Part shown: positions 3,075 to 54,618 of the stretch, piece after piece | How positions within the stretch are numbered: the first letter of the stretch is position 1 | Layout: each line of letters opens with the position of its first letter | Source: Prevotella sp. | GTDB taxonomy: Bacteria; Bacteroidota; Bacteroidia; Bacteroidales; Bacteroidaceae | Length of the DNA: 64,000 nucleotides | Reading direction: 5' to 3' | Assembly: GCA_016291085.1 (NCBI GenBank) | Contig: JAEEVW010000010.1 | Location: 40,053-104,052, forward strand | Position numbers and translations under genes: made by a program | The notes under the pieces: generated by a model | The model's database searches: none | What the model was told of the DNA's origin: nothing | The model's input: the letters and a program-made list of their open reading frames with translations, nothing else

Positions 3075-3184
3075 GACAGAGAAGCCTTCTCGCAACCGTT
3101 TGCGTTAGCCCAAACAACCGTGCGCGTTAGCCCAAACAACCGTGCGCGTTAGCCCAAACGACCGTTCGCGTATACGCAAAAGCT
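3075..3184. repeat. intergenic 22-bp-period array (about 5 units)
   Basis: Units at 3075, 3097, 3119, 3141, 3163; e.g. CGTGCGCGTTAGCCCAAACAAC; first unit contains GAGAAGCCTTCTC. Confidence 0.85.
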
Positions 3185-9746: not shown

Positions 9747-12434
9747 ATGAAGAAGAGAATCATAGTTTTATACATTGGACTCACGATAACCTTTTTGGCT
9801 ATGGCACAACGGGTTAGCGTGGTAACATCCAAAGGAGCGTCAGCACGTGAGCAGTATGCTGCCGAATACCTCCAGAAGAAACTGACAGACATGGGGTATG
9901 AGGTCACGCCAAAGAAAGGATTGCGCATTACGCTGACTAATGCTAGTAATGGTCCTGCTGAGGGATATACCATCACGAAAGATAAGAAGGCCGTGAGTAC
10001 GGGCCTTCAGGGAATCGTGGTATCGGGCAACGATGCGACGGGTGTTATCTATGGTTGCGTGGAACTGGCTGACCGTATTCGTCAAAAAGGGTCGCTGGAT
10101 ATCGAGCCTGTGCAGGAGACACCAGGTATGGTGATGCGCGGCACGTGCATCGGACTGCAGAAGACGGTGTATCTGCCTGGTCATGCTGTGTATGAATACC
10201 CCTATACGCCCGAGAACTTCCCTTGGTTTTACGATAAGGCAGAGTGGCTGAAGTATCTCGACATGATGGTTGAGAACAAATACAATTCGCTGTACCTTTG
10301 GAACGGACATCCCTTTGCCTCGCTGGTGAAACTGAAGGACTATCCCTTCGCCTTGGAGGTAGACGAGGAGACCTTTAAGAAGAACGAGGAAATCTTCTCA
10401 TTCCTGACCCACGAGGCTGACAAACGTGGCATTTGGGTCATTCAGATGTTCTATAACATCATCCTGAGTAAGCCCTTTGCCGACCACTATGGCCTGAAGA
10501 CACAGGATCGTCATCGCCCCATCACACCACTGATTTCTGACTATACCCGCAAGTCCATTGCCGCCTTTATCGAAAAATATCCCAATGTGGGACTGTTAGT
10601 CTGCTTGGGCGAAGCAATGGCAACGATAGATGATGACGTAACGTGGATGAAGGAGACCATTATCCCAGGCATTAAGGACGGACTGACAGCCAGTGGACGA
10701 GCCACTGTGCCCGACGGTTCTCCGTCGGGGCTCCCCCCCATCGTGCTCCGTTCCCACGACACAGACGGCCCATTGGTGCTGAAGGAGTCGCTCCCCCTCT
10801 ATCCCAACATTTATACAATGTCGAAATATACGGGGGAGTCGTTGACCACCTACGAGCCAGGAGGTCCTTGGGGCGAGACGCATCGTCAGCTGGCAGATGC
10901 TGCTCCAGTGCATATCGATAACGTACATATCTTGGCGAACTTGGAACCTTGGCGTTGGTCGTCGCCCGCTTTTATCGAGAAAACCGTTCAGGCTATGCAT
11001 CGTGTACATCACTCGAAGGGTTTGCACCTCTATCCGCAGGCTTCCTATTGGGACTGGCCTTATACGGCAGACAAGTTACCCAATGGCGAACGTCTGAAAC
11101 AGTTGGATCGCGACTGGATGTGGTATCAAGCTTGGGGACGCTATGCGTGGAATGACCAGCGTGGCGAAGACAGTGAATACTGGCTTAAGATTCTTATGGA
11201 CTATTATGGTATTAAAGACAGATACACAGGTCAACTAGTGTTGGAGGCCTATAATGAAAGTGGCGAGATTGCTCCCAAATTGCTGCGTCGCTTCGGCATT
11301 ACGGAGGGTAACCGCCAGACGCTTCTTCTTGGTATGACAATGGGACAACTTGTCAACCCCTACAAATACACCATCTATCCTGGTTTCTATGAGAGCTGTG
11401 GACCACAGGGCGAGAAACTCATAGAATACGTGGAAAAAGAATATAAAGGCGAGAAACATCAAGGTGAGCTGCCTTTAGACATTGTTGACCAATGTGTGGA
11501 ACACGGAAATAATGCAGCACGTAACGTTATCTTTGCCGTACAGAACGTTGAAAAGCATCAAGAGGAATTCCTACGCTTTGCCAACGACATGTTCTGTTAT
11601 TGGAAATTTGCAGAATCATTCCGTGCAAAGGTGCTTGCTGCCCAGCAGGTTTTGAACTACAAATGGACAAAAGACCTTAAGTATTTAGACAATGCCGTTC
11701 CTTTGTTGGAACAAAGTGTGGCTCTTTGGCATGAACTTGTTGCTTTTGCAGATAGTAGTTATCTTTATGCTAACTCCATGCAGACGCAGCAGCGCCGCAT
11801 CCCGGTAGGAGGTGATGGAGGCAAGATGAAGACATGGGGCGAACTGGAAAAGGTGTATCAGGAGGAACTCGATGCCTTTAAGGAGAACATCGAGAAGCTG
11901 AAGCATCCTGTAGCACAGACGAATGTCAAGATACTGCCTGCAAATAATGCAAAGGTCAACTACAAAGGCGCCACCGTTACACTCGAGAAGGGTGCCATCC
12001 TCTTTGAGAATCGTCCAGATACCCCCGTCGATTCCATTGCTCCTGAGTTGGCCGGCCTGCAAGCCCTCGTGCTGAATCGCGACACCACCCGCATTGTGGG
12101 AACGACTCTTGTTTTTGAGAGCGAGAACCCCGTCAAGGTGCTGGTTGGTCTTTTCAAGGATGACGATAAGAAATTTGCCAAGGCTCCCAAACTGGAGATT
12201 GACGCAACGGGCAATGAGTACGGTCAGGCAGAACCCATTCTGACCAATGCCATCAGCATCGTACAGATGCCTAAAGTCAATATTCATCAGTATTCTCTGC
12301 CAGCAGGTCGTAACACCATCCGTCTGCCAAAGGGAATTCTTATGGTGGCAGGTTTTACGGATAGCACCATCACTCCACGCGACTGCGGCTTAAGTGGACC
12401 ATCCAGCGAAGTTGATTGGCTGTTTCAAAAGTAA
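9747..12434 (+). CDS. secreted glycoside hydrolase with alpha-glucuronidase/GH20-type N-terminal domain
   Basis: Signal peptide; zincin-like N-terminal domain then TIM-barrel-like region (EWLKYLDMMVENKYNSLYLWNGHPFASLV). Confidence 0.6.
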   Translation: MKKRIIVLYIGLTITFLAMAQRVSVVTSKGASAREQYAAEYLQKKLTDMGYEVTPKKGLRITLTNASNGPAEGYTITKDKKAVSTGLQGIVVSGNDATGVIYGCVELADRIRQKGSLDIEPVQETPGMVMRGTCIGLQKTVYLPGHAVYEYPYTPENFPWFYDKAEWLKYLDMMVENKYNSLYLWNGHPFASLVKLKDYPFALEVDEETFKKNEEIFSFLTHEADKRGIWVIQMFYNIILSKPFADHYGLKTQDRHRPITPLISDYTRKSIAAFIEKYPNVGLLVCLGEAMATIDDDVTWMKETIIPGIKDGLTASGRATVPDGSPSGLPPIVLRSHDTDGPLVLKESLPLYPNIYTMSKYTGESLTTYEPGGPWGETHRQLADAAPVHIDNVHILANLEPWRWSSPAFIEKTVQAMHRVHHSKGLHLYPQASYWDWPYTADKLPNGERLKQLDRDWMWYQAWGRYAWNDQRGEDSEYWLKILMDYYGIKDRYTGQLVLEAYNESGEIAPKLLRRFGITEGNRQTLLLGMTMGQLVNPYKYTIYPGFYESCGPQGEKLIEYVEKEYKGEKHQGELPLDIVDQCVEHGNNAARNVIFAVQNVEKHQEEFLRFANDMFCYWKFAESFRAKVLAAQQVLNYKWTKDLKYLDNAVPLLEQSVALWHELVAFADSSYLYANSMQTQQRRIPVGGDGGKMKTWGELEKVYQEELDAFKENIEKLKHPVAQTNVKILPANNAKVNYKGATVTLEKGAILFENRPDTPVDSIAPELAGLQALVLNRDTTRIVGTTLVFESENPVKVLVGLFKDDDKKFAKAPKLEIDATGNEYGQAEPILTNAISIVQMPKVNIHQYSLPAGRNTIRLPKGILMVAGFTDSTITPRDCGLSGPSSEVDWLFQK
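10701..10729. repeat. in-frame palindromic element
   Basis: GCCACTGTGCCCGACGGTTCTCCGTCGGG; arms 10710-10717 / 10722-10729, encodes ATVPDGSPSG. Confidence 0.8.
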
Positions 12435-12450
12435 AAAGGTAAAAAAATAG
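12427..12450. repeat. octamer repeat (AAAGGTAA-type), stop codon of upstream gene lies within it
   Basis: AAAAGTAA AAAGGTAA AAAAATAG. Confidence 0.65.
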
Positions 12451-12454
12451 TGCA

Positions 12455-15400
12455 ATGAGAAAGACAGGCAATAAGCAGGCAGACATAAGGGTATGGGGTG
12501 TTTTACTTTTTTACCTTTTTACCTTTTCTCCTTTGCTGGCTGACGATATCAGCCAGCAAGAGATGCAGCGCATCTACCAAGAGGTGCGCACGCCTTATAA
12601 ATATGGTATGGTGGTAGCCCCTACGGACAACTACCACAAGATAGACTGTCCGACAGTGTTCCGTGAAGGCGAAAAATGGCTGATGACCTATGTCGTTTAT
12701 AACGGCAAGGACGGACTCGATGGACGAGGCTATGAGACGTGGCTGGCTGAGAGTGACGACTTGTTGCATTGGACGACGAAGGGACGCCTTCTGTCGTATA
12801 AAGACGATGGTTGGGACATGAATCAGCGAGGTGGTTTTCCTGCCCTCATCGATTGGACTTGGGGCGGGGGCTACGAGCTCGGCGAATACAAAGGCAAGCA
12901 TTGGATGACCTATATCGGTGGGCACGGTACAGGCTACGAAGCTGTGCGCGAACCCCTGAACATCGGAATGGCTTGGACACAGGGCGAAATCACTAAAGCC
13001 CATGAGTGGCAGTCAGGCGAAAAACCGCTGATGAGCATTAATGACAAAGACGTGCAATGGTGGGAGCAATTGGTGCAATACAAGAGTACCATTTATAGCC
13101 TCACCCCCAGCTCCTCTCCGAAGGGCGAGGGGAGTGGTTTGCCCAAAGAACTGGCGAAGTATCGTTTTGTGATGTTCTACAATGCTGGCGGCGTCAATCC
13201 AGATAACAATTTGAAGGCTGAGCGCATTGGTATAGCCCTCAGCAACGACCTGAAGAAATGGAAACGCTATGATGGTAATCCCGTCTTTGCCAATGAGGTA
13301 GGTGGCATCATCACGGGTGATGCCCAGATAGCCAAGATGGGCGACCTGTATGTGATGTTTTATTTCAAGGCCTACGACCCGTCGCGCAAGTATAATGCCT
13401 TCAATACCTTTGCTGTGAGTCGCGACCTCATTCATTGGCAGCGATGGGAGGGTGAAGACCTCATCTGGCCCACGAAACCCTACGACGAGATGTTTGCCCA
13501 TAAGAGCTATGTAGTGAAGCACGATGGGGTGGTGTACCATTTTTATTGTGCAGTGAACAACGATCAACAGCGTGGCATCGCCGTTGCTACGAGTGTACCC
13601 ATGGGGCGCTCTGAGGTGCGTTTTCCAGAACCTGAACGCAAAGGTCGTCGCACGATCACTAACCTCAACGAAGGATGGATGGCAAGCATTGTGCCCGACG
13701 GAGAACCGTCGGGAACGGTGGCAGAACCATCGGGCGTCACCATCCCCCACAACTTCGATGACTACTACGGCTACCGCCAGCTACGGCATGGAAACCTGCA
13801 CGGTAGTGCCGTTTATCAGAAAACATTCGTCGCTCAACCACAAGAGGATAAGCGCTACTTCCTGCAGTTCGAGGGCGTGGGCACGTATGCTACCATCACC
13901 CTTAATGATACGCAATATTCTAAGGAACTGATTGGTCGCACCGTCTTTACCCTTGACGTTACAGAGGCTTTGAATACGGGCAAGAACACATTACACGTTC
14001 TTGTCGATCATCCTGCCATGCAGACGGAGTCACCTTGGGTATGTGGAGGTTGCTCATCAGAATGGGGTTTCTCTGAAGGTAGTCAGCCCTTTGGCATCTT
14101 CCGTCCTGTAACGCTCATCGAAACGGATGCTGTGCGCATTGAACCCTTTGGTGTGCATATTTGGAATAACGCTACCTGTGACTCAGTATTTATCGACACA
14201 GAGGTCAAGAATTACACCCAACAGCCTCAGACCTTTGAACTGGTCAATAAGTTTGCCCTCGCCTCTGGCAAAACTGTGTTCCGCCTATCACAAGAAATGA
14301 GACTGGAACCAGGAGAAATGCGAGTCATCCACCAGTCTTCTGCCATATCCAATGTACACCGCTGGTGTCTTGACGATCCTTATCTTTACACGCTCACATC
14401 AATGCTAAAGCGACCAGACCATTACGATGGTGATAGCAACCAACAGCGTGAGCCTGCCTACGTTACTTTCGATGAGGTGCGGACACCCTTCGGTATTCGT
14501 AACATCTCATGGCCTGTTAAGCGCAACGACGGAGATCATCGTTTCTTCCTCAACGGACAGCCAGTCTTTATCAATGGCACTTGCGAGTATGAACACCTTT
14601 TGGGTAATAGCCACGCCTTTACCCCAGAGCAGATCCGCTCGCGCATCAAGCAGATTACCAATGCGGGCTTTAACGCCTTCCGAGAGGCCCATCAGCCCCA
14701 TAACCTGCTCTATCAGCAGTTGCTCGACGAACAAGGCATCCTCTTCTGGAGCCAGTTCTCAGCACATATCTGGTACGATACTCCACAATTCCGTGAGAAC
14801 TTCAAACGGCTGCTAGTGCGATGGATTAAGGAGCGTCGCAATTCGCCCTCTGTTATCCTTTGGGGATTGCAGAACGAGAGTATCCTGCCCAAGGACTTTG
14901 CAGAAGAGTGCAGCGATATTATCCGCTCGCTTGACCCCACCTGTCGTGATCAGCGCCTCATTACTACGTGTAATGGTGGTGAGGGTACCGATTGGAACGT
15001 CATCCAGAACTGGAGTGGCACATACGGAGGCTCTGCTGAGAACTACGACAATGAGCTGAAGCGCCCTGAGCAATTGCTGAATGGCGAATATGGTGCTTGG
15101 CGCACCATCGACCTGCATGGTGATGCGAAATATAGCGAGGAAAGTTTTACCAAGCTATTGGAAACCAAGGTGCGGTTGGCAGAGAAAGCGTTTGATGTCA
15201 GCGGGGAAACCGCTGACAGCAAGGGCGTCTGCGGCCACTTCCAGTGGCTCTTCACCTCACACGACAATCCAGGCCGTGTGCAACCCGATGGCGCCCTACG
15301 TCGTATCGACAAGATTGGACCGATCAACTATAAAGGGCTGACGACGATTTGGGAGGAGCCTACGCCTGCGTATTATATGTATAGGCAGCGGTATGCGGGA

Positions 15401-16519
15401 AGACCCGACGGAAAACCGTCGGGCACAGTGGGCACCGCTGCAGGGTTTAATTCCAATGCTGCAGACAATCCCACCGCTGCTGACAGGAATCGCGACCTCG
15501 TGAAGGGTGCTGATGGGTATCAGTATCTATACCGCATCAATTGTGGTGGTGATGCTTTTGTCGATGAGTTCGGACAGCAATGGCTGGCGGACGACACCCT
15601 CTATAGCCACTCGTGGGGTCAGGACTATGGCATGCATCCCTATCAGGCTTCGCAACGCCACATCGCAGAAGACATTCGTGGAACCAAGAGCGACGAATTG
15701 TTCCAATATTTCCGCTTTGGACGCCATCGTTTGTGGTACGACTTAGATGTCAGTGGAGGATTGCGTGCCACACTCCTACCTTCAGGTGGGAGAACTACTG
15801 ACAGCGAGTATCGCATTGAACTTTACTTCGCGGAGCCTTGGCACGGAAAGGGTGGTGGCGAGCGTGATGACTATGAGGGCATGCGCATCTTTGATGTAGC
15901 TGTGAATGGTGAGACTGTTGTCGATGATCTCGACCCATGGGCTGAGGCTGGCTATTGTGGGGCCATGAAACGTGTGGTTACTGCTAAGGCTAAAGACGGA
16001 AAACTTCGTATCTCCTTCCCAGAAGTGAAGGCTGGGCAGGCTGTCATTTGTGGTATTGCGATAGCAACTGTATCGCCTGTTGCGACTCAGTCGCAACAAA
16101 CGGTAAATGCAATTCCGACCTCTTGGCGAGCCTTCGATACAGACACCATCGCAAAGTTGCCAAAGGAGTTGCTGCCAAAAGATACAGAAGCCCGTCCGGC
16201 TTCCGTCTATGAGCCTGCAGCTAATAGCCAAAAGACAAAAGCAGGTAGCGGAACCTCCTTTGTCATCAAGCCTGGTTTGGGTCAGGAGTATGCCCTGCGT
16301 TTCCGTTATAAGAACACGACAGGCAACCCTGTGAAGGCCCGCATGACCATTACGGATTCGAAGCGTACCACGCTGGTGGATCGTGACATCACGTTCCCTC
16401 CCACGCCCAATAAGTTCAAAATGCTCTCGACGACCACTGGTACCCAGATTAATGCGGGTACTTATACTGTCTGCATTGACACCAAGGATGTAGAATTTAA
16501 AGAACTCGAAATCCAATAG
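12455..16519 (+). CDS. multidomain secreted glycoside hydrolase: GH43/GH32-like beta-propeller + GH2 + malectin-like domain
   Basis: 1354 aa; propeller motifs; GH2 core RWIKERRNSPSVILWGLQNES; C-terminal malectin-like ELYFAEPWHG. Confidence 0.75.
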   Translation: MRKTGNKQADIRVWGVLLFYLFTFSPLLADDISQQEMQRIYQEVRTPYKYGMVVAPTDNYHKIDCPTVFREGEKWLMTYVVYNGKDGLDGRGYETWLAESDDLLHWTTKGRLLSYKDDGWDMNQRGGFPALIDWTWGGGYELGEYKGKHWMTYIGGHGTGYEAVREPLNIGMAWTQGEITKAHEWQSGEKPLMSINDKDVQWWEQLVQYKSTIYSLTPSSSPKGEGSGLPKELAKYRFVMFYNAGGVNPDNNLKAERIGIALSNDLKKWKRYDGNPVFANEVGGIITGDAQIAKMGDLYVMFYFKAYDPSRKYNAFNTFAVSRDLIHWQRWEGEDLIWPTKPYDEMFAHKSYVVKHDGVVYHFYCAVNNDQQRGIAVATSVPMGRSEVRFPEPERKGRRTITNLNEGWMASIVPDGEPSGTVAEPSGVTIPHNFDDYYGYRQLRHGNLHGSAVYQKTFVAQPQEDKRYFLQFEGVGTYATITLNDTQYSKELIGRTVFTLDVTEALNTGKNTLHVLVDHPAMQTESPWVCGGCSSEWGFSEGSQPFGIFRPVTLIETDAVRIEPFGVHIWNNATCDSVFIDTEVKNYTQQPQTFELVNKFALASGKTVFRLSQEMRLEPGEMRVIHQSSAISNVHRWCLDDPYLYTLTSMLKRPDHYDGDSNQQREPAYVTFDEVRTPFGIRNISWPVKRNDGDHRFFLNGQPVFINGTCEYEHLLGNSHAFTPEQIRSRIKQITNAGFNAFREAHQPHNLLYQQLLDEQGILFWSQFSAHIWYDTPQFRENFKRLLVRWIKERRNSPSVILWGLQNESILPKDFAEECSDIIRSLDPTCRDQRLITTCNGGEGTDWNVIQNWSGTYGGSAENYDNELKRPEQLLNGEYGAWRTIDLHGDAKYSEESFTKLLETKVRLAEKAFDVSGETADSKGVCGHFQWLFTSHDNPGRVQPDGALRRIDKIGPINYKGLTTIWEEPTPAYYMYRQRYAGRPDGKPSGTVGTAAGFNSNAADNPTAADRNRDLVKGADGYQYLYRINCGGDAFVDEFGQQWLADDTLYSHSWGQDYGMHPYQASQRHIAEDIRGTKSDELFQYFRFGRHRLWYDLDVSGGLRATLLPSGGRTTDSEYRIELYFAEPWHGKGGGERDDYEGMRIFDVAVNGETVVDDLDPWAEAGYCGAMKRVVTAKAKDGKLRISFPEVKAGQAVICGIAIATVSPVATQSQQTVNAIPTSWRAFDTDTIAKLPKELLPKDTEARPASVYEPAANSQKTKAGSGTSFVIKPGLGQEYALRFRYKNTTGNPVKARMTITDSKRTTLVDRDITFPPTPNKFKMLSTTTGTQINAGTYTVCIDTKDVEFKELEIQ
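12501..12531. repeat. octamer TTTTACCT tandem encoding the signal-peptide core
   Basis: TTTTACTT TTTTACCT TTTTACCT TTTCTCC encodes LFYLFTFSP. Confidence 0.75.
13101..13137. repeat. in-frame C/G-rich palindromic element (half copy)
   Basis: TCACCCCCAGCTCCTCTCCGAAGGGCGAGGGGAGTGG encodes LTPSSSPKGEGSG. Confidence 0.75.
13691..13736. repeat. in-frame palindromic element
   Basis: CCCGACGG AGAA CCGTCGGG (13694-13713), followed by GAACGGTGGCAGAACCATCGGGC; encodes VPDGEPSGTVAEPSG. Confidence 0.8.
15196..15218. repeat. in-frame hairpin
   Basis: TGTCAGCGG GGAAA CCGCTGACA. Confidence 0.6.
15404..15432. repeat. in-frame palindromic element, reverse orientation
   Basis: CCCGACGG AAAA CCGTCGGG CACAGTGGG; encodes RPDGKPSGTVG. 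Confidence 0.8.
16079..16097. repeat. in-frame perfect palindrome
   Basis: GTTGCGACT C AGTCGCAAC. Confidence 0.65.
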
Positions 16520-33388: not shown

Positions 33389-35833
33389 ATGAGACAGGTC
33401 TTAATAGCACTACTGATAGGATTTGTACAGCCGTTGATGGCGCAGACAGGCGACAGGGACTATGCACAGACAAACGCCTTTGGCAATGCCCAGTGGATAG
33501 GTGCCATCACGAAAGCTGATGCCAAGACACCAGCAGGGCGGCACTATACGGGTAGCGTGCTGAAAGAGACGAAGGAAGCATGGGCTCAGGCTGACCCACT
33601 ATCGCGACAGAGCATCATCCTGCGACGTAGCTTTAGGCCTTACAAGAAGGTGAAGCAGGCGGAGTTGCGCATCTGCGGATTAGGATTCTACGAGGCCACC
33701 ATCAATGGCGTGAAGGTGGGCGAATCGGAGTTTGCCCCCACGTGGAGCGACTACGACAAGACGCTGTACTTCAACACCTACGATGTCACCCAGCTGATTC
33801 AGCAGGGTGACAACGAGTTGCGCGTGCTGTTGGGCAATGGTTTTTATAATGAACAGGGCGGGCGATACGTGAAGCTGAAGGTGTCGTTTGGTCCCCCCAC
33901 GTTGCTTTGTCTGCTCTACGTCACCTATGAGGATGGTATGCGCGAGCACCTGTTCAGCGACGACAAGTGGCAATGGACGGAGAGTCCGATCACCTTTAAC
34001 AGCATCTATGGTGGTGAGGATTATGATGCAAGGCTGGAGACCCCCCTCCGTCTCCCCCGCGGGGGAGTGGCTGAAGCCTCCCCTCGGGGAGGTTTGGTGG
34101 GGGTCTGGAAGCCCGTCGTGATACAAGAGGCACCAAAGGGTGTGCTGCGTCCGCAGGTTGTCCAACCCGTAAAAATCATGGAGCGCTTTCCCGTCAAGCA
34201 GGTTCTGAAATGGCAAGGCGATACGCTCCTCGTATTCGATATGGGTCAGAACCTTGCTGGCTATCCGGAAATCACTGTCGAGGGCAAGGCTGGTCAAAGA
34301 CTGAAGCTCATTCCTGGCGAGACGCTGGATAAAGACGGATTCGTGAATCAACGACAAACGGGCCGCCCCCATTATTATACTTATATATTAAAAGGTAATA
34401 GCCAGACTAATCATAAAGTTCAAAGCTCAAAGTTCAAAGTTCAAAGTTCAGAAGTTTGGCATCCGCGATTCTCGTATTACGGCTATCGTTATCTGCAAGT
34501 GGAGGGCGACATTAACGTGTTGAAGAAGGTGGAGTCGTGCTTCGTCTACAATTCTGCTGAGCGGACAGGTTCGTTCGAATGCAGTAATCCACGCATCAAC
34601 GCTACCCACCAGTTGATAGATCGCGCCATCAGAAGCAATTGGCAGTCTGTGTGGACAGACTGTCCCTCGCGCGAAAAGCTTGGCTGGCTGGAACAAGACT
34701 GGTTGAATGGCGAGGCACTGGTGTATAACTACGATGCGCAAAGGATGATAGAGCAGACCATGCAGAACATCGTCGATGCACAACACGAAGATGGTTCTAT
34801 GCCCGAGATAGCACCAGAGTATACGCAGTTTACAGGTTCGTGGGCTCGCCCCTTCCAAGAGTCGCCCGAATGGGGTGGTGCCATCATCGCCCTGCCCATG
34901 CTCTACCTCAGGCATTATGGCAGTCTCGATTTGGCAGAACGCCATTATGACGCCATGAAACGCTATGTCGACTATCTGGCCTCGCAGGACTCCTGCTACA
35001 TCTTGAAACAGGGTCTTGGTGACTGGTACGACTACGGGCCTGGACGTGCAGGCTTCTCGCAGAATACCCCTATGCCGCTGGTATCCACAGCCCACTATTA
35101 TCAGTGGATGTGTAATATGTTCGTCATAGCCAAGCTGTTAGGGAAGAAGAAGGATGCTGAGCAGTTCAACACGCAGGCAGACAACATCCGCCAGTCGTTC
35201 AACCGCACTTTTTACAATGCAGAAAAGAAGACCTACGGCTCAGGCAGTCAGTGTTCCTTGGCTTTGCCGCTGTATCTGAAGATGGTTCCTGAGGGTGACT
35301 ATCAGGTTGTGCTTCAGCATCTGATGGATGACATCAAAGCCCACGGAACCCGTCTGACCACAGGTGATGTGGGCAATCGATACCTCTTCTCTGTATTGAT
35401 AGAGAACGACCAGCGCGAGTTGCTCTACGCCATGCTGAATCACGACGATGTGCCTGGCTATGGCTATCAGATCAAGAAGGGACACACCACGCTGACAGAG
35501 CAATGGAACCCCGATATGGGCGCGTCGATGAACCACTTTATGATGGCGCATATTGAGAATTTCCTGATATCCGATCTTCTGGGCATCCAGCGTATTGGCG
35601 ATTTGATAGAGATACAGCCGCATCCCGTGGGTGATATCGTTTGGTGCAAGGGTTCCACGATGAGCGCCAATGGCATTGTCAAGGTGGAATGGCGTATCCA
35701 TGAAGGTGTATTCACGATGGATATTGATATCCCAGAGGGCGGTTTTGCCGATGTCTATATGCCCTTCTCGAATCATGCGGAGAGTGTCACAGAGGGACAT
35801 CATAAACTGACAGAAAAGATAAACAAACAATAA
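33389..35833 (+). CDS. GH78 alpha-L-rhamnosidase
   Basis: RICGLGFYEATINGVKVGESEFAPTWSDYDKTLYFNTYDVT; WTDCPSREKLGWLEQDW; ATG at 33389 preferred. Confidence 0.92.
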   Translation: MRQVLIALLIGFVQPLMAQTGDRDYAQTNAFGNAQWIGAITKADAKTPAGRHYTGSVLKETKEAWAQADPLSRQSIILRRSFRPYKKVKQAELRICGLGFYEATINGVKVGESEFAPTWSDYDKTLYFNTYDVTQLIQQGDNELRVLLGNGFYNEQGGRYVKLKVSFGPPTLLCLLYVTYEDGMREHLFSDDKWQWTESPITFNSIYGGEDYDARLETPLRLPRGGVAEASPRGGLVGVWKPVVIQEAPKGVLRPQVVQPVKIMERFPVKQVLKWQGDTLLVFDMGQNLAGYPEITVEGKAGQRLKLIPGETLDKDGFVNQRQTGRPHYYTYILKGNSQTNHKVQSSKFKVQSSEVWHPRFSYYGYRYLQVEGDINVLKKVESCFVYNSAERTGSFECSNPRINATHQLIDRAIRSNWQSVWTDCPSREKLGWLEQDWLNGEALVYNYDAQRMIEQTMQNIVDAQHEDGSMPEIAPEYTQFTGSWARPFQESPEWGGAIIALPMLYLRHYGSLDLAERHYDAMKRYVDYLASQDSCYILKQGLGDWYDYGPGRAGFSQNTPMPLVSTAHYYQWMCNMFVIAKLLGKKKDAEQFNTQADNIRQSFNRTFYNAEKKTYGSGSQCSLALPLYLKMVPEGDYQVVLQHLMDDIKAHGTRLTTGDVGNRYLFSVLIENDQRELLYAMLNHDDVPGYGYQIKKGHTTLTEQWNPDMGASMNHFMMAHIENFLISDLLGIQRIGDLIEIQPHPVGDIVWCKGSTMSANGIVKVEWRIHEGVFTMDIDIPEGGFADVYMPFSNHAESVTEGHHKLTEKINKQ
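34039..34106. repeat. in-frame C/G-rich composite palindrome
   Basis: Outer GACCCCCCTCC / GGTGGGGGTC; inner CTCCCCCGCGGGGGAG and CCTCCCCTCGGGGAGG. Confidence 0.85.
34415..34449. repeat. in-frame heptamer (AAAGTTC)x5
   Basis: AAAGTTC AAAGCTC AAAGTTC AAAGTTC AAAGTTC encodes KVQSSKFKVQSS. Confidence 0.85.
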
Positions 35834-35836
35834 GCG

Positions 35837-38734
35837 ATGAATACTTGGAAAGCGAATCTCGAAGAGACGAAGAAACACTATATCGACTGGTGGAACCACA
35901 AGGGCATTGTGCTCAACATGTGGGAACACTTTCAGGAAGGCGTCACACCCCATGCTGACATTCCTGCCCCTCAGCCCTATCGCGACTTGAACCAACGTTG
36001 GTTCGACCCAGTGTGGCGTGCGGAGTATTTGGATTGGTATGTGGCGCACTCGTCGATGATGGCTGACATGTTGCCTGTGGCCAATACGCAACTGGGCCCA
36101 GGCTCGTTGGCAGCTATCTTGGGTGGTGTGTTCGAGGGTGGTGAAGATACCATCTGGATTCATCCTGACCCCAATTACAGCGACGATATCAAGTTCGATT
36201 CCAACCATCCTAACTGGCTGTTGCACAAAGAGTTGCTGAAGGCCTGCAAGGCGAAAGCACAGGGTCACTACTATGTCGGTATGCCTGACCTGATGGAAGG
36301 TCTCGACGTGCTGGCAGCTATCAAGGGAACGGACAAGGTGTTGCTCGATACGGTGATGCAACCTGAGGTGCTCGAGCATCAGATGCAACAGATTAACGAC
36401 ATCTATTTCCGTGTGTTCGACGAGCTCTACGACATCATTCGCGAGGGCGACGAGATGGCATTCTGCTATTTCTCCAGTTGGGCGCCTGGCAAGATGTCGA
36501 AGTTGCAGAGCGACATCTCGACGATGATCAGTGTCGACGACTATCGTCGTTTCGTACAGCCCTTTATCCGCGAACAATGTCAGAAGATTGACTATACCCT
36601 CTACCACCTCGATGGAGTGGGGGCTATGCACCATTTGGATGCCCTGTTGGAGATTAAGGAACTGAACGCCATCCAGTGGACGCCAGGTGTGGGAGAGCCA
36701 CAAGGCGGTTCACCCAAGTGGTACGACCTATACCGCAAGATTCTGGCTGGTGGTAAGAGCATCATGGCTTGTTGGGTGACACTCGACGAGTTGCGCCCCC
36801 TGCTCGATAACATTGGAGGCGAGGGTGTCCATATCGAGATGGACTTCCACAATGAACGCGAGGTGGAACAGGCGATGAAGATAGTGGACGACTTCAAAAC
36901 CAATCGTAATATACATCCGTCAGACTTCAAAGACGACGTCGACCTCGAGGTAGAGGAAATCATTCGTCGTGTAGAAAGTGCAGAGTGTGCTTCTGCAGAG
37001 GAAAATACTGATAAAAGTGCGGTAGCAAACTCTACACTCTACACTCTAAACTCTAAACTCAATAAAATCCTCGTTCTCGATGGTGCGATGGGTACGATGA
37101 TTCAGCGCTATCAGTTGCGCGAAGAAGACTTCCGGGGAGCTCGTTTCGCTAACCATCCTAAGGAACTGAAGGGTTGCAACGACGTGCTGTCGCTGACTGC
37201 TCCTTTCGTCATTCGCGACATCCATCGCAAATACCTGGAGGCAGGTGCTGACATCATCGAGACGAACACCTTTAACGCCCAGCGCATCTCGATGGGTGAC
37301 TTCGGCATGCAGGACTACTGTCGCGACATCAACCTTGCCGCAGTCAAGATTGCCCGTCAGTGTGCCGACGAGTTTAGCTCGTCGGATAAGCCCCGCTACG
37401 TAGCAGGTAGCATCGGCCCCACAAGCAGAACAACCTTTGTTACCACCAGTGGCGAGACACTTGATAAGAATGTATTGCGTGAGGCCTACGCCGAACAGAT
37501 TCAGGCCCTCGTTGACGGAGGTATAGACGCCCTGCTCATCGAAACCATCTTTGATGTAGAGAATGCCCGCATTGCCTTTGAGGAAGCCCAGCGCATAGCA
37601 CCTCAGCTGCCTATCATGTTGAGTTTCAGCGTATCTACGCCCGATGGTCATAATATGTTGGGACAGGACATCTGCGAGTTTCTTCAGTCATTGGACAAAG
37701 AAAATATCTTCTCCGTAGGAATCAATTGCGTGAGCGACGTTGCACAGATGGCGCCCCTCGTTTGTCGCTTGGCACAGTTTGGCACACGGGTGAGCCTCTA
37801 TCCCAATGCAGGCATGCCTGATGGTAACGGACACTATAACAAGACTCCAGAGAGTCTGTTGGCTGACGTCTGGCCCTTGTTAGAAGGACATTGCCTGAAC
37901 ATTATTGGTGGCTGTTGTGGAACGACGGATGCACATATCCGCCTATTCGCCAAAGCCATTGAGCCCGTGCCAGGAATTTTTCTGTCGCCATTGAAGACCC
38001 ACCCCCAACCCCTCCCTATGAAGGAGGGGAGTGAATACTCTCCAGTCAAGGAAATAACGGAAAAACTATCTATTCCCATCCCTCATAGGGAGGGGTCAGG
38101 GGAGAGTCTTCTCTTCGAGGCCATCCTGAACGGCAAGAGCGACGAGGCTGCTGCTGCGACTAAGGACGCTATTGCAGAAGGCATTGCTCCACAAGACCTC
38201 ATCAACGGACAGATGATTCGTGCGATGGGTGAGGTGGGTCAGCGTTTTCAGGATGGCAAGGCCTTCGTACCTCAGTTGCTGATGGCTGGTCGTGCGATGA
38301 AGGCCGCCCTCGAACTGTTGAAACCCATGATGGCTGGTGCTGCCTCTACGTCGTTGGGTAAGGTGGTCATCGGTACGGTGAAGGGCGACTTGCACGATAT
38401 TGGTAAGAACCTGGTGGCGTCGATGTTGGAAGGTTGCGGATTTGAGGTTGTCAATATTGGTATCGACGTTTCTGCCGATAAGTTTATTGAGGCCATCAAG
38501 GAGAACCAGCCCGACATTCTTTGCATGAGTGCACTGTTGACCACCACGATGGGTTATATGAAAGAGGTTATCGACGCCCTCGAACAAGCGGGCATTCGCG
38601 ACCAAGTGAAAGTGATGGTAGGTGGAGCGCCTGTGACGCAGGGTTTTGCCGACGAGATTGGTGCCGATGGTTATAGCGACAACGCCAATTCGGCAGTTGC
38701 AGTCGCGAAGCAACTGTTAAAGGTAAAAAGGTAA
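35837..38734 (+). CDS. fusion: UroD-type methyltransferase - MetH-type homocysteine S-methyltransferase - B12-binding corrinoid domain
   Basis: 965 aa; UroD-like aa ~1-390; HcyMT (DGAMGTMIQ, GGCCGTTDAHI) ~410-715; corrinoid domain with DLHDIGKN ~757-965. Confidence 0.88.
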   Translation: MNTWKANLEETKKHYIDWWNHKGIVLNMWEHFQEGVTPHADIPAPQPYRDLNQRWFDPVWRAEYLDWYVAHSSMMADMLPVANTQLGPGSLAAILGGVFEGGEDTIWIHPDPNYSDDIKFDSNHPNWLLHKELLKACKAKAQGHYYVGMPDLMEGLDVLAAIKGTDKVLLDTVMQPEVLEHQMQQINDIYFRVFDELYDIIREGDEMAFCYFSSWAPGKMSKLQSDISTMISVDDYRRFVQPFIREQCQKIDYTLYHLDGVGAMHHLDALLEIKELNAIQWTPGVGEPQGGSPKWYDLYRKILAGGKSIMACWVTLDELRPLLDNIGGEGVHIEMDFHNEREVEQAMKIVDDFKTNRNIHPSDFKDDVDLEVEEIIRRVESAECASAEENTDKSAVANSTLYTLNSKLNKILVLDGAMGTMIQRYQLREEDFRGARFANHPKELKGCNDVLSLTAPFVIRDIHRKYLEAGADIIETNTFNAQRISMGDFGMQDYCRDINLAAVKIARQCADEFSSSDKPRYVAGSIGPTSRTTFVTTSGETLDKNVLREAYAEQIQALVDGGIDALLIETIFDVENARIAFEEAQRIAPQLPIMLSFSVSTPDGHNMLGQDICEFLQSLDKENIFSVGINCVSDVAQMAPLVCRLAQFGTRVSLYPNAGMPDGNGHYNKTPESLLADVWPLLEGHCLNIIGGCCGTTDAHIRLFAKAIEPVPGIFLSPLKTHPQPLPMKEGSEYSPVKEITEKLSIPIPHREGSGESLLFEAILNGKSDEAAAATKDAIAEGIAPQDLINGQMIRAMGEVGQRFQDGKAFVPQLLMAGRAMKAALELLKPMMAGAASTSLGKVVIGTVKGDLHDIGKNLVASMLEGCGFEVVNIGIDVSADKFIEAIKENQPDILCMSALLTTTMGYMKEVIDALEQAGIRDQVKVMVGGAPVTQGFADEIGADGYSDNANSAVAVAKQLLKVKR
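37026..37060. repeat. heptamer tandem repeat encoding interdomain linker 1
   Basis: TCTACAC TCTACAC TCTAAAC TCTAAAC encodes NSTLYTLNSKLN. Confidence 0.85.
37995..38109. repeat. C/G-rich composite inverted repeat encoding interdomain linker 2
   Basis: AGACCCACCCCCAACCCCTCCCTATGAAGGAGGGGAGTG ... CATCCCTCATAGGGAGGGGTCAGGGGAGAGTCTT. Confidence 0.85.
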
Positions 38735-38758
38735 AAAAGTAAAAGGGTAAAAAGGTAT
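38719..38758. repeat. octamer repeat overlapping the 3' end of the fusion gene
   Basis: AAAGGTAA AAAGGTAA AAAAGTAA AAGGGTAA AAAGGTAT; first 32 nt identical to 61501-61532. Confidence 0.9.
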
Positions 38759-43989: not shown

Positions 43990-44182
43990 GTTTGCTCGGA
44001 GCAATCGATGGGTTTGCTCGGAGCAATCGATGGGCCCGCTCGGAGCAACAAGCCGTTTCGCTGGTAGCGAGAGGCCGTTTCTCTCCCAGTGAGAGGCCGT
44101 TTCTCTCCCAGCGAGAAGCCGTGTTGCTATTTTTCCCTGGGCAGGGAATTTTTGCGCGCTGGGCAGGGCGCAAATTTTCGCT
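43990..44182. repeat. intergenic 22-bp-period hairpin array (about 8-9 units)
   Basis: Units GTTTGCTCGGAGCAATCGATGG (43990, 44012), one 21-bp unit (44034), GTTTCTCTCCCAGTGAGAGGCC (44077) etc.; CTGGGCAGGG hairpins at 44137 and 44159 keep the 22-bp spacing. Confidence 0.85.
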
Positions 44183-49205: not shown

Positions 49206-50624
49206 ATGATGAAAGTGAATAGTACTGTTTTGAGACGGGTAATGGGTCTTTTACCTTTTTACCTTTTTACCCTTTTACCTTTAAACGCTCAGACTTTTGA
49301 GACTCGCTACGAGCGTCCTGTCAGCGACCTGATGAAGGATGTTGCCAAGCGTTTTGGTGTGAAGTTCAAGTTCGACGGCAATGTCGATACCGTGGGCAAA
49401 CGTCTGCCCTATGCCGACTTCCGTGTGCGCCCCTATAGCATCGAGATGACGCTCGACAACATCTGCAAATACTACGACTGGAACTGGTGGAAACAGAGCG
49501 GCAACCTCTATAAAATCAAGCTCTATGAGTATCCGCGTCGTCATGAGCAAGAGGGAAAAATGATGCTCGACTGGCTCTCGTCACTTTATAATAATAAGGA
49601 GCAATGGGAGGCTCGTCGTGACTCATTGCGTCGTGAAGTCCGCCAACGACTGGAATTGGACAAGTTCCTCGACTCATGTGTGATGGTGAAGGACAAGAAA
49701 GGCAATCTGCAACGGCCCGTCATCCTCTCGAAGATTCGCAAGCACGACGGCTATACCACGCAGAACATCTGTATCGAACTGACGCCAGGCCAGCACCTCT
49801 TTGGTACGATCTATAACCCCTCCCCCGTCCCCTCTCGAGGGAAGGGCGTAAAGAGCTCTAAAGGTAACAATTCCTCTCCCTCGGGGAGGTTAGGAGGGGG
49901 TTATCCCCTCATCGTCTGCCCTGATGGTCATTGGCCCTATCGTTATCGTAAGGACGAGCAGCAGCGACTGGGCACGCTGGCCCGTATGGGTGCCGTGTGT
50001 GTTGATTTCGACCTCTATGGCTGGGGCGAGAGTGAAAAGGAGGTAGGCGAAGCAGCTCATCACACGAGTCGTGCCCACGTCTATCAGGCTGCTTGTGGCT
50101 ATATCCTGCTCGACTGGATGCTGACCCATCGCAAGGACATCGACCCAGAGCGTGTAGGCGTGATGGGTGGCTCAGGTGGTGGTACGCATACCGTATTGTT
50201 GTCGTTGCTCGACGAACGTGTCACAGCCTCTGCTCCTGTGGTGCATCTGGCCTCGCATTTCGATGGAGGCTGTCCCTGCGAGAGTGGCAAACCCGTACAG
50301 TTGAGCGGAGGTGGAACGTGTGAACCAGAGCTTGCTGCAACCTTTGCCCCAAAGCCTTTGCTGGTGGTATCTGATGATGGCGATTGGACGTCCAGCGTTC
50401 CTCGCTTGGAGTATCCCTATCTGCAACGCATCTATGGCTTCTACGATGCAAAGGATAAGGTGCGTAACGTGCACCTGCCAGGTGAGCGTCACGACTTCAA
50501 GGAAAACAAGCGCCAGGCTGTCTACGACTTCTTCATCGACGTCTTTGGTCTCGACCGCTCGATGCTCGACGAAAGCAAAATCACTATCGAACCTGACGAA
50601 GCACTCAAATCACTCTACAAATGA
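49206..50624 (+). CDS. secreted alpha/beta-hydrolase esterase with N-terminal STN-like domain
   Basis: VGVMGGSGGGTHTVLLSLLDERVTASAPV nucleophile elbow; N-terminal SDLMKDVAKRFGVKFKFDG...MTLDNICKYYDWNWWKQSGNLYKI. Confidence 0.7.
   Translation: MMKVNSTVLRRVMGLLPFYLFTLLPLNAQTFETRYERPVSDLMKDVAKRFGVKFKFDGNVDTVGKRLPYADFRVRPYSIEMTLDNICKYYDWNWWKQSGNLYKIKLYEYPRRHEQEGKMMLDWLSSLYNNKEQWEARRDSLRREVRQRLELDKFLDSCVMVKDKKGNLQRPVILSKIRKHDGYTTQNICIELTPGQHLFGTIYNPSPVPSRGKGVKSSKGNNSSPSGRLGGGYPLIVCPDGHWPYRYRKDEQQRLGTLARMGAVCVDFDLYGWGESEKEVGEAAHHTSRAHVYQAACGYILLDWMLTHRKDIDPERVGVMGGSGGGTHTVLLSLLDERVTASAPVVHLASHFDGGCPCESGKPVQLSGGGTCEPELAATFAPKPLLVVSDDGDWTSSVPRLEYPYLQRIYGFYDAKDKVRNVHLPGERHDFKENKRQAVYDFFIDVFGLDRSMLDESKITIEPDEALKSLYK
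49249..49280. repeat. octamer (TTTTACCT)x4 encoding the signal-peptide core
   Basis: TTTTACCT TTTTACCT TTTTACCC TTTTACCT encodes LPFYLFTLLPL. Confidence 0.85.
49815..49904. repeat. in-frame C/G-rich composite palindrome
   Basis: Outer ATAACCCCTCCC / GGAGGGGGTTAT; inner CCTCTCGAGGG and CCTCTCCCTCGGGGAGG. Confidence 0.85.
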
Positions 50625-51208
50625 AACGGCTGTTGGTATTGACATTTCTCATCTCTCATTTCTCATTTCTCATTTGCGAAGCACAAGAGACGCACTACCA
50701 CAAAGGGCTGCGTTCGCAAGCAGAGAATGATAAATACGGAGGTGTGGCCTCAGAACCGCACTTCGACGGAGGAGGCTATTATTGGACTCGTGTGCGCAAT
50801 GTAGACGACGTCGCTATCACCCATGAATCGCCAGCTGACTCTATTGCTCGTCGTAATGACTTTAAACGTTTGTGCCAGTTGGCTTATGATGCCTACGAGG
50901 AGGGAGACGCGGTGAAAACCATCACTTATGGCGATAGTGCCCTACAGAAACGGTATCATACTGCCGACCTCTACTACTTCATGGCCGTATCGTTCGAGAA
51001 GTTAGGCAGTTACGACGAAGCCGACTGGGCCTATCGCTATGCCCTCGGCTCTGGCTATCCTGGAGCCCTGAACATATACCATGATTTCAAGGCTCGGCAA
51101 CTGCAACGTAAAGCAGAAGCCAAGCAGCGTAAGAAGGAAGAAAAACAACGCCAAAAAGAAGAAAAGCGCAAGGCAAAGGAAGAAAAGAAGAGGCTCAAGG
51201 AAAGTTGA
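50621..51208 (+). CDS. secreted hypothetical protein with TPR-like region and Lys/Glu-rich tail
   Basis: Signal peptide LLVLTFLISHFSFLICEAQ; C-terminus KAEAKQRKKEEKQRQKEEKRKAKEEKKRLKES. Confidence 0.65.
   Translation: MKRLLVLTFLISHFSFLICEAQETHYHKGLRSQAENDKYGGVASEPHFDGGGYYWTRVRNVDDVAITHESPADSIARRNDFKRLCQLAYDAYEEGDAVKTITYGDSALQKRYHTADLYYFMAVSFEKLGSYDEADWAYRYALGSGYPGALNIYHDFKARQLQRKAEAKQRKKEEKQRQKEEKRKAKEEKKRLKES
50644..50675. repeat. heptamer (ATTTCTC)x4 encoding the signal-peptide core
   Basis: ATTTCTC ATCTCTC ATTTCTC ATTTCTC ATT. Confidence 0.85.
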
Positions 51209-52342: not shown

Positions 52343-54618
52343 GACGTTTGATATTAATCATAGGAATAGCGTGGGCTACGCTGAACATGAATGCCCAGAG
52401 CATCTATAGTTTTGGCGACCTGCGGGCCAAAGTGCTCCATGTGGGTCAGAAACTGACTGGTCATAACTCCGCTAACGATCAGGCCATTGCAGTCATTGTG
52501 CGAGAGTTGGCTACGAACTATCAAGGTCGTTTGTCGCGCCAACAGTTTCAGGAGCTGAAAGACACCATCGAGAGTATGCGTCAGCAAATCACAGCGGACA
52601 CTTGGAAAACGGTCTTAAACAGTGCCGTTGAAACGTTGCAGGAAAAGACGGATACACTCGACATCGAGCAGCGAATTCTTAACTACTACCGACGAGTACC
52701 ACAGGAACAGATCTACGTCCACACCGACAAGCCTTACTACGTGGCAGGTGATACTGTTTGGTTCCGAGCCCATTTGGTGGATGCTGTTACGCATACGCCC
52801 ATCAGCCGCTCGCGTTTTGTCTATGTGGAACTGCATGACCAGCAGGCTGATACGCTCTTGCAACGCATCATCGTGAAGTGCGATTCGGATGGCGTCTTTG
52901 CCAATGCCATCACTTTGCCTCGTGGAATGAAGGGAGGCTGCTATACCCTTGCAGCCTATACACAATGGATGCGTAACTTTCCTGCCGAAAGGTTCTTCTA
53001 CAAGCAATTGCTGGTTATTGATAGTTCCCAAGGTGGGAACGATTCATTCCCAAAGTGGGAACGATTCATTCCCAAGGTGGGAACAATTCATTCCCAAGGT
53101 GGGAATCCGTCGCTACAAGTAGTCCAACGCAAAGGGCAACTGCTTATCCAATTGAACAAGCCTACTAACGAGCCTCTCTCGTGTGTGCTTTATGGTAGTG
53201 GGAACCTCATAGTCACTGACTATACATCAGGGAAGGTGTTACGTATTGACAGCAAAACACTACGTCCAGGAAACCTCTGCATAGCTATCGTCAACCGCGA
53301 GACGGGATACGTCATTGCTGAAAGCCAGACCACCATCGAGGGAACTCAGCCACAGGTAGCCATTAGTGGTAAAGCTCGTACCCTGAACGAACCGATGGAG
53401 TTGTCGATAGACCTTGCAGAATCTGACGGTACACCGCTCTATGGAAGCTTCTCGCTGTCGGTTGCCGATTACGACGTGGTAATCCCCGATACGATACAAC
53501 CATCTATTGACAAGTCTCTGAACCAACTATCTGCCGACTACCCTTTGGCTGATATACTCAACGGCACATACCCCCGCATCGACTATGGTTTCCAGACCAC
53601 ACAGACCATTACTGGGCAGATTCGTGGTACTATCTTCAAAAAAATCAAGAATCCCAAGCTGATGTTGGTACGGCCAGATACCGGATTCCGTCAGACCTTC
53701 GAACTTGGCGACAGTTGCCGCTTTACCATCAACGGCCTCGACTTCGCCGACGGTACAACCTACGTACTGGAGGGTATGCGACGTACAGGCAGTACCAGCC
53801 TCGTACAACTGGATATCACCACACAGACATTCCCTACCTTACATTCGCCTTTTTCCTCTGCCCCATCATCTCTTTCCGTCCCAGACAACTTCGCAAAGCA
53901 AGCTCAAGAGCAGGTGATGTATGGTAGCATAGACCGCGAGATAGAACTGCCCGAAGTAGTCAAGGAGAAGAAGCGTCAGCACAAGCCCACCAACTTAATG
54001 GGGATGCCACCCTTCCGTGCCTTCTATGATGACGACCCCTTGCTCAACAATTTCTACTCGATGGAGATTCTGCTCAGTACCTTAGGCATTCCCGTCTATC
54101 GCGATGCTAATGGCGAGTTACAAATCAGATACCGCTCAGGCACAGTTACGCGAGCGATGCAAGGTCCAGTCATTTTCATCGACGAGTTTCGTAGCAACGT
54201 GGAGGAATTACTGATGCTTCAGCCCCAGGCCATTGAGTCCATCGAATGGTTCGACCATGTCGGTGCCGCCAACATGACCATCTATGGCTGGGACGTGTCA
54301 ACCTCGGGACTATTGCTTGTCCGGCAGAAACCTGGTCTTCATGGTAGGATATTCCGTCCCTTGTCAATGGCTACGGTGCAGCAACAGGGTTGGAAACCCA
54401 ATGTCGAGTTCTATTCTCCGCAATACACGGACAAGAGTCAGAAGACGCGCCCTGACCATCGAACCACACTCTACTGGAATCCGAAGGTCACGACAGACAT
54501 CAATGGTCATGCTCAGGTCCGCTTCTACGCCTCCGACATCTCCAAACGTTATTTGGTGACGCTGGAAGGTGTCAGCAACGACGGAACTGTCGTACGAAAA
54601 CAAATGGTCATAGAATAA
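52339..54618 (+). CDS. secreted MG2/carboxypeptidase-regulatory-like outer-membrane-associated protein
   Basis: YVHTDKPYYVAGDTVWFRAHLVDAVTHTPISRSRFVYVEL is the MG2-like signature; C-terminal FYSPQYTDKSQKTRPDHRTTLYWNP. Confidence 0.75.
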   Translation: MRRLILIIGIAWATLNMNAQSIYSFGDLRAKVLHVGQKLTGHNSANDQAIAVIVRELATNYQGRLSRQQFQELKDTIESMRQQITADTWKTVLNSAVETLQEKTDTLDIEQRILNYYRRVPQEQIYVHTDKPYYVAGDTVWFRAHLVDAVTHTPISRSRFVYVELHDQQADTLLQRIIVKCDSDGVFANAITLPRGMKGGCYTLAAYTQWMRNFPAERFFYKQLLVIDSSQGGNDSFPKWERFIPKVGTIHSQGGNPSLQVVQRKGQLLIQLNKPTNEPLSCVLYGSGNLIVTDYTSGKVLRIDSKTLRPGNLCIAIVNRETGYVIAESQTTIEGTQPQVAISGKARTLNEPMELSIDLAESDGTPLYGSFSLSVADYDVVIPDTIQPSIDKSLNQLSADYPLADILNGTYPRIDYGFQTTQTITGQIRGTIFKKIKNPKLMLVRPDTGFRQTFELGDSCRFTINGLDFADGTTYVLEGMRRTGSTSLVQLDITTQTFPTLHSPFSSAPSSLSVPDNFAKQAQEQVMYGSIDREIELPEVVKEKKRQHKPTNLMGMPPFRAFYDDDPLLNNFYSMEILLSTLGIPVYRDANGELQIRYRSGTVTRAMQGPVIFIDEFRSNVEELLMLQPQAIESIEWFDHVGAANMTIYGWDVSTSGLLLVRQKPGLHGRIFRPLSMATVQQQGWKPNVEFYSPQYTDKSQKTRPDHRTTLYWNPKVTTDINGHAQVRFYASDISKRYLVTLEGVSNDGTVVRKQMVIE
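53025..53105. repeat. in-frame 22-bp-period hairpin array (3 full units plus a core)
   Basis: TTCCCAAGGTGGGAACGATTCA x3 + TTCCCAAGGTGGGAA; 3 x 22 = 66 nt keeps frame. Confidence 0.93.

Follow-up and report, generated by a model that had tools for sequence, protein, structure and literature searches.

Repeats of TAACTGA, a heptamer, lie in intergenic DNA upstream of start codons in Beggiatoaceae, Cyanobacteria and some Bacteroidetes (PMC4679880), and G-rich intergenic heptamers are described from Xanthomonas and Nostoc (PMC4692102). The arrays of Prevotella analyzed here are similar to these systems in that they are short arrays of 7-nt units, mainly intergenic and patchy in distribution, with a mechanism of spreading that is not clear. 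As with the TAACTGA repeats of Beggiatoaceae, many arrays are found near start codons. They differ from these intergenic heptamers in the many 7- and 8-nt units per genome, the frequent inverted pairs, and the arrays which encode the core of signal peptides. The term "signal peptide" is absent from PMC4679880. In the open-access papers searched, signal peptides built from repeats are nowhere described, and searching with the peptide and repeat letters brought up nothing pertinent.

The predicted products have the basic n-region and hydrophobic core of Sec (SPI) and lipoprotein (SPII) signal peptides, and a putative small-residue or lipobox c-region. They are unlike ordinary Sec signal peptides in that their core is encoded by a tandem repeat which unrelated genes have in common, and that the n-region often contains fragments of the same repeat. 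The palindromic elements of Rickettsia are likewise a repeat family present both in intergenic DNA and in frame within many unrelated genes. Going by their description, those elements are larger palindromes and are not known to have a common targeting role.

The octamer array of the GH2/malectin gene

The window analyzed is a stretch of 64,000 nt from a Prevotella contig. The following features make up the locus:

12455-16519, + strand: predicted exported GH2/malectin protein of 1354 aa, signal peptide MRKTGNKQADIRVWGVLLFYLFTFSPLLAD
12501-12527, + strand: octamer array (TTTTACCT)3.4, coding for the hydrophobic signal peptide core
12427-12446, - strand: array in the opposite orientation in the 5' leader, AAAAGTAAAAAGGTAAAAAA on the + strand
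12447-12500, + strand: spacer separating the arrays, which includes the start codon and the basic n-region

The original prediction, that the hydrophobic core of this signal peptide is an octamer array of the intergenic type, was confirmed at 12501-12526, where TTTTACTTTTTTACCTTTTTACCTTT reads LLFYLFTFSP in ORF 12455-16519 (+ strand). The 26-nt reverse complement matches the intergenic blocks at 38719 and 61501 exactly, as had been claimed, and there is no third site in the window. The protein had been described as GH43-like/GH2; Pfam searches revealed GH2 and malectin domains, and no GH43 family at E 0.001. Removal of nucleotides 12501-12524 lowered the best 11-residue mean hydropathy of the protein (Kyte-Doolittle) from 2.01 to 1.28. 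The array at 12427-12446, which contains the TAA stop codon of the preceding gene (9747-12434), is predicted to pair with the signal peptide array in mRNA. A palindrome, GCTGGCTGACGATATCAGCCAGC, is located at 12535-12557, immediately 3' of the signal peptide.

Allowing up to one mismatch, the 16-mer TTTTACCTTTTTACCT had 11 matches in the window, where dinucleotide shuffles gave an expectation of 0.01. Five further arrays were annotated:

49249-49282, + strand: octamer array, signal peptide core LPFYLFTLLPL of ORF 49206-50624
50643-50675, + strand: heptamer array (CATTTCT), signal peptide core of ORF 50621-51208, MKRLLVLTFLISHFSFLICEAQ
38719-38757, - strand: octamer array overlapping the stop codon of ORF 35837-38734 (C-terminus LLKVKR-stop)
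60204-60241, - strand: octamer-type array filling the rimP-nusA junction
61501-61533, - strand: octamer array from nusA to the next ORF on the same strand

The repeat-encoded signal peptides of ORFs 49206-50624 and 50621-51208, like the opposite array at 12427-12446, had been overlooked in the original prediction. The ORF after nusA is, by its position, probably infB. Both nusA junctions (60204-60241 and 61501-61533) are filled by their arrays from the stop codon nearly to the next ATG.

Heptamer arrays were also observed within coding sequence (window positions 34415-34456, 37027-37060 and 57445-57476). Intragenic arrays of this kind encode KVQSSKFKVQSS in an alpha-L-rhamnosidase and NSTLYTLNSKL immediately N-terminal of the S-methyl-transferase domain of a MetH-like protein, and one falls within a GH95 catalytic domain. 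Tandem arrays of 22 nt, some with internal palindromes, are located at 3093-3171, 20727-20860, 43990-44122 and 53025-53105, the last of these in frame in an ORF of 759 aa which matches MG2 weakly.

Repeat arrays in the genome and the genus

Arrays were counted in an 864-kb sample of this genome, a non-random set of chosen large contigs which together with the window covers about 24% of the genome. There were 124 arrays of period 7 and 44 of period 8, built from many units, and at an equal threshold none of periods 1 to 6 in the same sample. Array lengths peaked at about 32-34 nt for both periods. Sequence shuffled by a first-order Markov model contained far fewer 7- and 8-nt arrays than the real sequence. 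The number of arrays per kb was 1.7 in intergenic DNA, 0.27 in the first 150 nt of genes and 0.06 in gene interiors. A relative without octamers (G024) had one array of each period in 400 kb; this sample and that of the present genome (G000, 864 kb) place array-rich and nearly array-free genomes in one genus.

The two strands of the arrays have different properties. The sense strand was purine-rich in intergenic gaps between co-directional genes (52:7) and pyrimidine-rich at the 5' ends of genes (22:5). Of 164 array units in this genome, 143 contained a stop codon on the purine-rich strand and 39 on the pyrimidine-rich one, and the open readings had a mean hydropathy of -1.1 and +0.86, respectively. 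Because a unit of 7 or 8 nt is coprime to 3, an array encodes one cyclic peptide in every frame. For the octamer this asymmetry had been foreseen, and it holds: the purine strand carries TAA in every frame, while the pyrimidine strand gives FYLFTFLP, open and hydrophobic, in all three. With its usually open and hydrophobic pyrimidine-rich strand as the sense strand, an array at the 5' end of a gene could thus act as an h-region.

The proposed scan for signal peptides of the FYLFTFLP type revealed that they recur throughout the genome and the genus. The exact 16-mer occurs 26 times in the whole genome (reversed control, 0), and two copies of TTTTACYY occur 161 times genome-wide compared to 5 for the reversed control. 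About a dozen of the octamer sites first fetched were signal peptide cores of unrelated exported proteins; the remainder were non-coding and commonly lay right after a stop codon. Sixteen octamer signal peptide candidates were found in the fetched DNA of this genome, 14 of them plausible by eye. The families with such a signal peptide include PorV, OmpA, LptE, M28 peptidase, FKBP, DUF3108 and DUF3943. A 24-mer scan of named genomes returned at least 119 stretches, and among the 80 listed nearly all were from Prevotella or relatives. The 16-mer was present in 65 of 150 genomes of the genus, and a 23-mer form was found in none of 198 genomes of the order outside the genus.

At 80 loci, with gene models taken as the longest ORFs and signal peptides called by crude patterns, the octamer formed the signal peptide core of 54 genes, a few of which are possibly spurious ORFs (L127, L153). 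A permissive, crude pattern placed 53 of the 54 c-regions, 40 as SPI-like and 13 as lipobox. The n-region had a net charge of at least 1 in 51 of the 54 (mean +3.3), and GGTAA occurred in it in 29 of 54 octamer signal peptides as against 5 of 61 ordinary ones.

It had been argued that the same peptide encoded by unrelated codons would speak against the repeat. When 150 genomes were searched for FYLFTFLP with every codon allowed, and with non-coding arrays counted too, the matches listed were solely octamer or near-octamer DNA, which points to the DNA repeat, and not convergence at the protein level, as the source of the common peptide; this support is strong but not complete. The same result bears on the idea that Phe- and Leu-rich signal peptides look repetitive by accident, through chance or codon and amino-acid bias. 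Low complexity is general in signal peptides, but the excess over expectation in the window and over the reversed control genome-wide, together with the identical arrays in non-coding DNA and the uniform codons of the listed matches, makes such an accident hardly credible.

The octamer is just one among many 7- and 8-mer units of signal peptides. Heptamers take this role in other genomes as well, TGCATTA giving (M)HYALCI and CTCATTT giving FLISHFS. Arrays in leaders showed no clear enrichment before exported genes, a crude signal peptide being called in 24 of 51 downstream genes compared to 42% of all genes. As judged by eye, many non-coding CTCATTT arrays stand immediately 5' of TAnnTTTG, which resembles the -7 promoter element of Bacteroidetes (loci L364, L368, L369, L371, L374-L376, L378, L380, L381, L384 and L388), and these arrays may double as promoter parts.

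Simple-sequence contingency loci are similar in having short tandem repeats in or near the 5' ends of envelope genes. Phase variation, with changes in the number of 7- or 8-nt units shifting the frame and turning surface proteins on and off, would agree with unit lengths that are not multiples of 3 and with the many envelope proteins among the targets. It is nevertheless improbable, since the octamer arrays in signal peptides comprise only about 3-5 units and stand in one and the same frame relative to the ATG in 51 of 54 cases. No frameshifted signal peptide allele was noticed, although a single assembly per species is unable to reveal switching. The Prevotella arrays are unlike contingency loci in their few copies, their constant frame and, with one assembly per species, the lack of any sign of switching.

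Our main reading, to which we assign a probability of roughly three in four, is that in this genus short tandem arrays of 7- or 8-nt units have repeatedly taken the place of h-regions in signal peptides which many unrelated exported proteins already had. Some Prevotella genomes hold hundreds of such arrays, mostly intergenic and with a purine-rich sense strand. Their pyrimidine-rich strand is usually open in all frames and encodes a repeating hydrophobic peptide, and an array in this orientation at a 5' end could provide a Sec signal peptide with its h-region. Replacement may often take the n-region and the leader as well as the h-region. The arrays would be drawn from the intergenic pool, the resulting signal peptides are predicted to be functional in export, and cassettes may spread by recombination with the aid of array homology.

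Orthologue comparisons and probable copying of cassettes

The signal peptides of 30 GH2 orthologues comprised two with the octamer, two with a degenerate or variant octamer and three with a TGCATT heptamer, the others being ordinary; the octamer signal peptides fell in separate parts of the protein tree. An alignment of the window gene to its closest relative (88% identical) covers the last part of the preceding gene and the mature protein, but not the leader and signal peptide. In one octamer orthologue (L099), the likeness to the window extends through leader and signal peptide, so that shared descent or recombination, instead of a fresh gain, is possible for this pair. The DUF3108 orthologues, found with a query 74% identical to the real protein and then aligned to the genuine sequence, have signal peptides of the octamer, of TCAATGT, of TCTTACC or of the ordinary kind. 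Four further families have the octamer in one species and a heptamer in another, in one case with a mature sequence 86% identical. TGCATTA, CTCATTT, TCAATGT and TCTTACC were the repeats seen in place of the octamer across orthologues.

Orthologues whose signal peptides are ordinary or derived from another repeat indicate that the signal peptide was swapped and export presumably retained. The original prediction went further and suggested that insertion of the repeat near a 5' end could create an export signal. The repeat-encoded h-region is borne out, but a gain of export is not: every orthologue examined apparently bears a signal peptide, so the array would have replaced or remodelled an existing one. 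A pair of secreted and non-secreted alleles, the comparison proposed for this purpose, was not seen among the orthologues examined. Genes matching the octamer set made up 6 of 23 genes with a heptamer signal peptide (duplicates of one site included) and 8 of 196 control exported genes; these small sets give hints of recurrent sites for repeat signal peptides.

Two non-homologous genes of this genome, coding for PorV (C40) and an OmpA-family protein (C69), are nearly identical from the ATG to the end of the array (89% over the 46-nt n-region), and their flanks outside this cassette are unrelated. The n-regions of a second pair are 80% identical, likewise from ATG to array end. The background identity of n-regions between octamer signal peptide genes of this genome averaged 35%, and values of at least 70% were found in 2 of 120 pairs. 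In these two pairs, the signal peptide cassette was likely copied from gene to gene within the genome. No copies of this kind were found in partial samples of two other genomes, with 6 and 5 signal peptide genes. With two pairs in 120 here and none there, most arrays appear to have arrived by means other than cassette copying.

Inverted partner arrays and significance

A complementary array upstream of or at the ATG was found in 35 of 54 octamer signal peptide genes, compared to 8 of 163 other genes at the same loci. The upstream unit was that of the signal peptide in 50 of 52 genes in which both arms could be classified, and three unit types were represented. In GH2 orthologues the arms covary, TTTTACAT occurring with ATGTAAAA in L104 and GTGCATT with AATGCAC in L086. 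These frequencies, the agreement of the arms and the predicted folding of the leaders (median z of -3.3 for paired and -0.06 for unpaired leaders) would fit a pair that is primarily an mRNA hairpin controlling translation, e.g. a thermosensor or start-site switch, with the signal peptide being whatever the stem encodes. We regard this as unlikely. The folding score is a consequence of the arms and no independent evidence, and the upstream partner is absent in 19 of the 54. In addition, inverted pairs occur within genes and away from start codons, and most leader arrays have no partner in a signal peptide. Arms were matched at least as well by the arms of foreign loci (mean, 20.5) as by their own partners (mean, 20.2), most signal peptide arms in this comparison having been preselected for pure TTTTACCT.

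Inverted repeats are known to arise, and to be made uniform, by foldback template switching (PMC8794818, PMC8604942). Such switching during replication, copying a leader array into the signal peptide region or the reverse, is a tentative explanation of the pairs. It is consistent with this published mechanism and with the partners found within 150 bp in the 864-kb sample, where 24 arrays had an inverted partner and none a direct one. A second genome sampled, however, had 4 direct pairs beside 12 inverted ones, and recent switching should have left own arms better matched than foreign ones, which was not the case, a comparison to be read with the preselection of the arms in mind.

The conserved internal sequence expected of a mobile element with inverted-repeat ends was not found, the spacers between the arms being mostly unrelated (mean identity, 35%).

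Beyond the replacement of h-regions as such, signal peptides might be replaceable modules. The prevailing repeat of a genome would then enter the leader and signal peptide of recurring envelope genes, forming inverted pairs around the ATG, and a change of unit would alter both arms. We consider this extension possible but rather doubtful.

The replacement of h-regions by arrays would be a concrete example of how non-coding repeats can turn into part of a protein, many times, at an identifiable place and with the orthologous alternatives still visible. It would also explain the odd sequence LPFYLFTFLPL in unrelated Prevotella proteins, where the likeness is not one of homology. The repeat signal peptides form a natural set with which the looseness of the sequence requirement for export can be tested. 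If the modular reading is true, the repeats would be a genome-wide and self-renewing source of export signals with a coupled leader structure.
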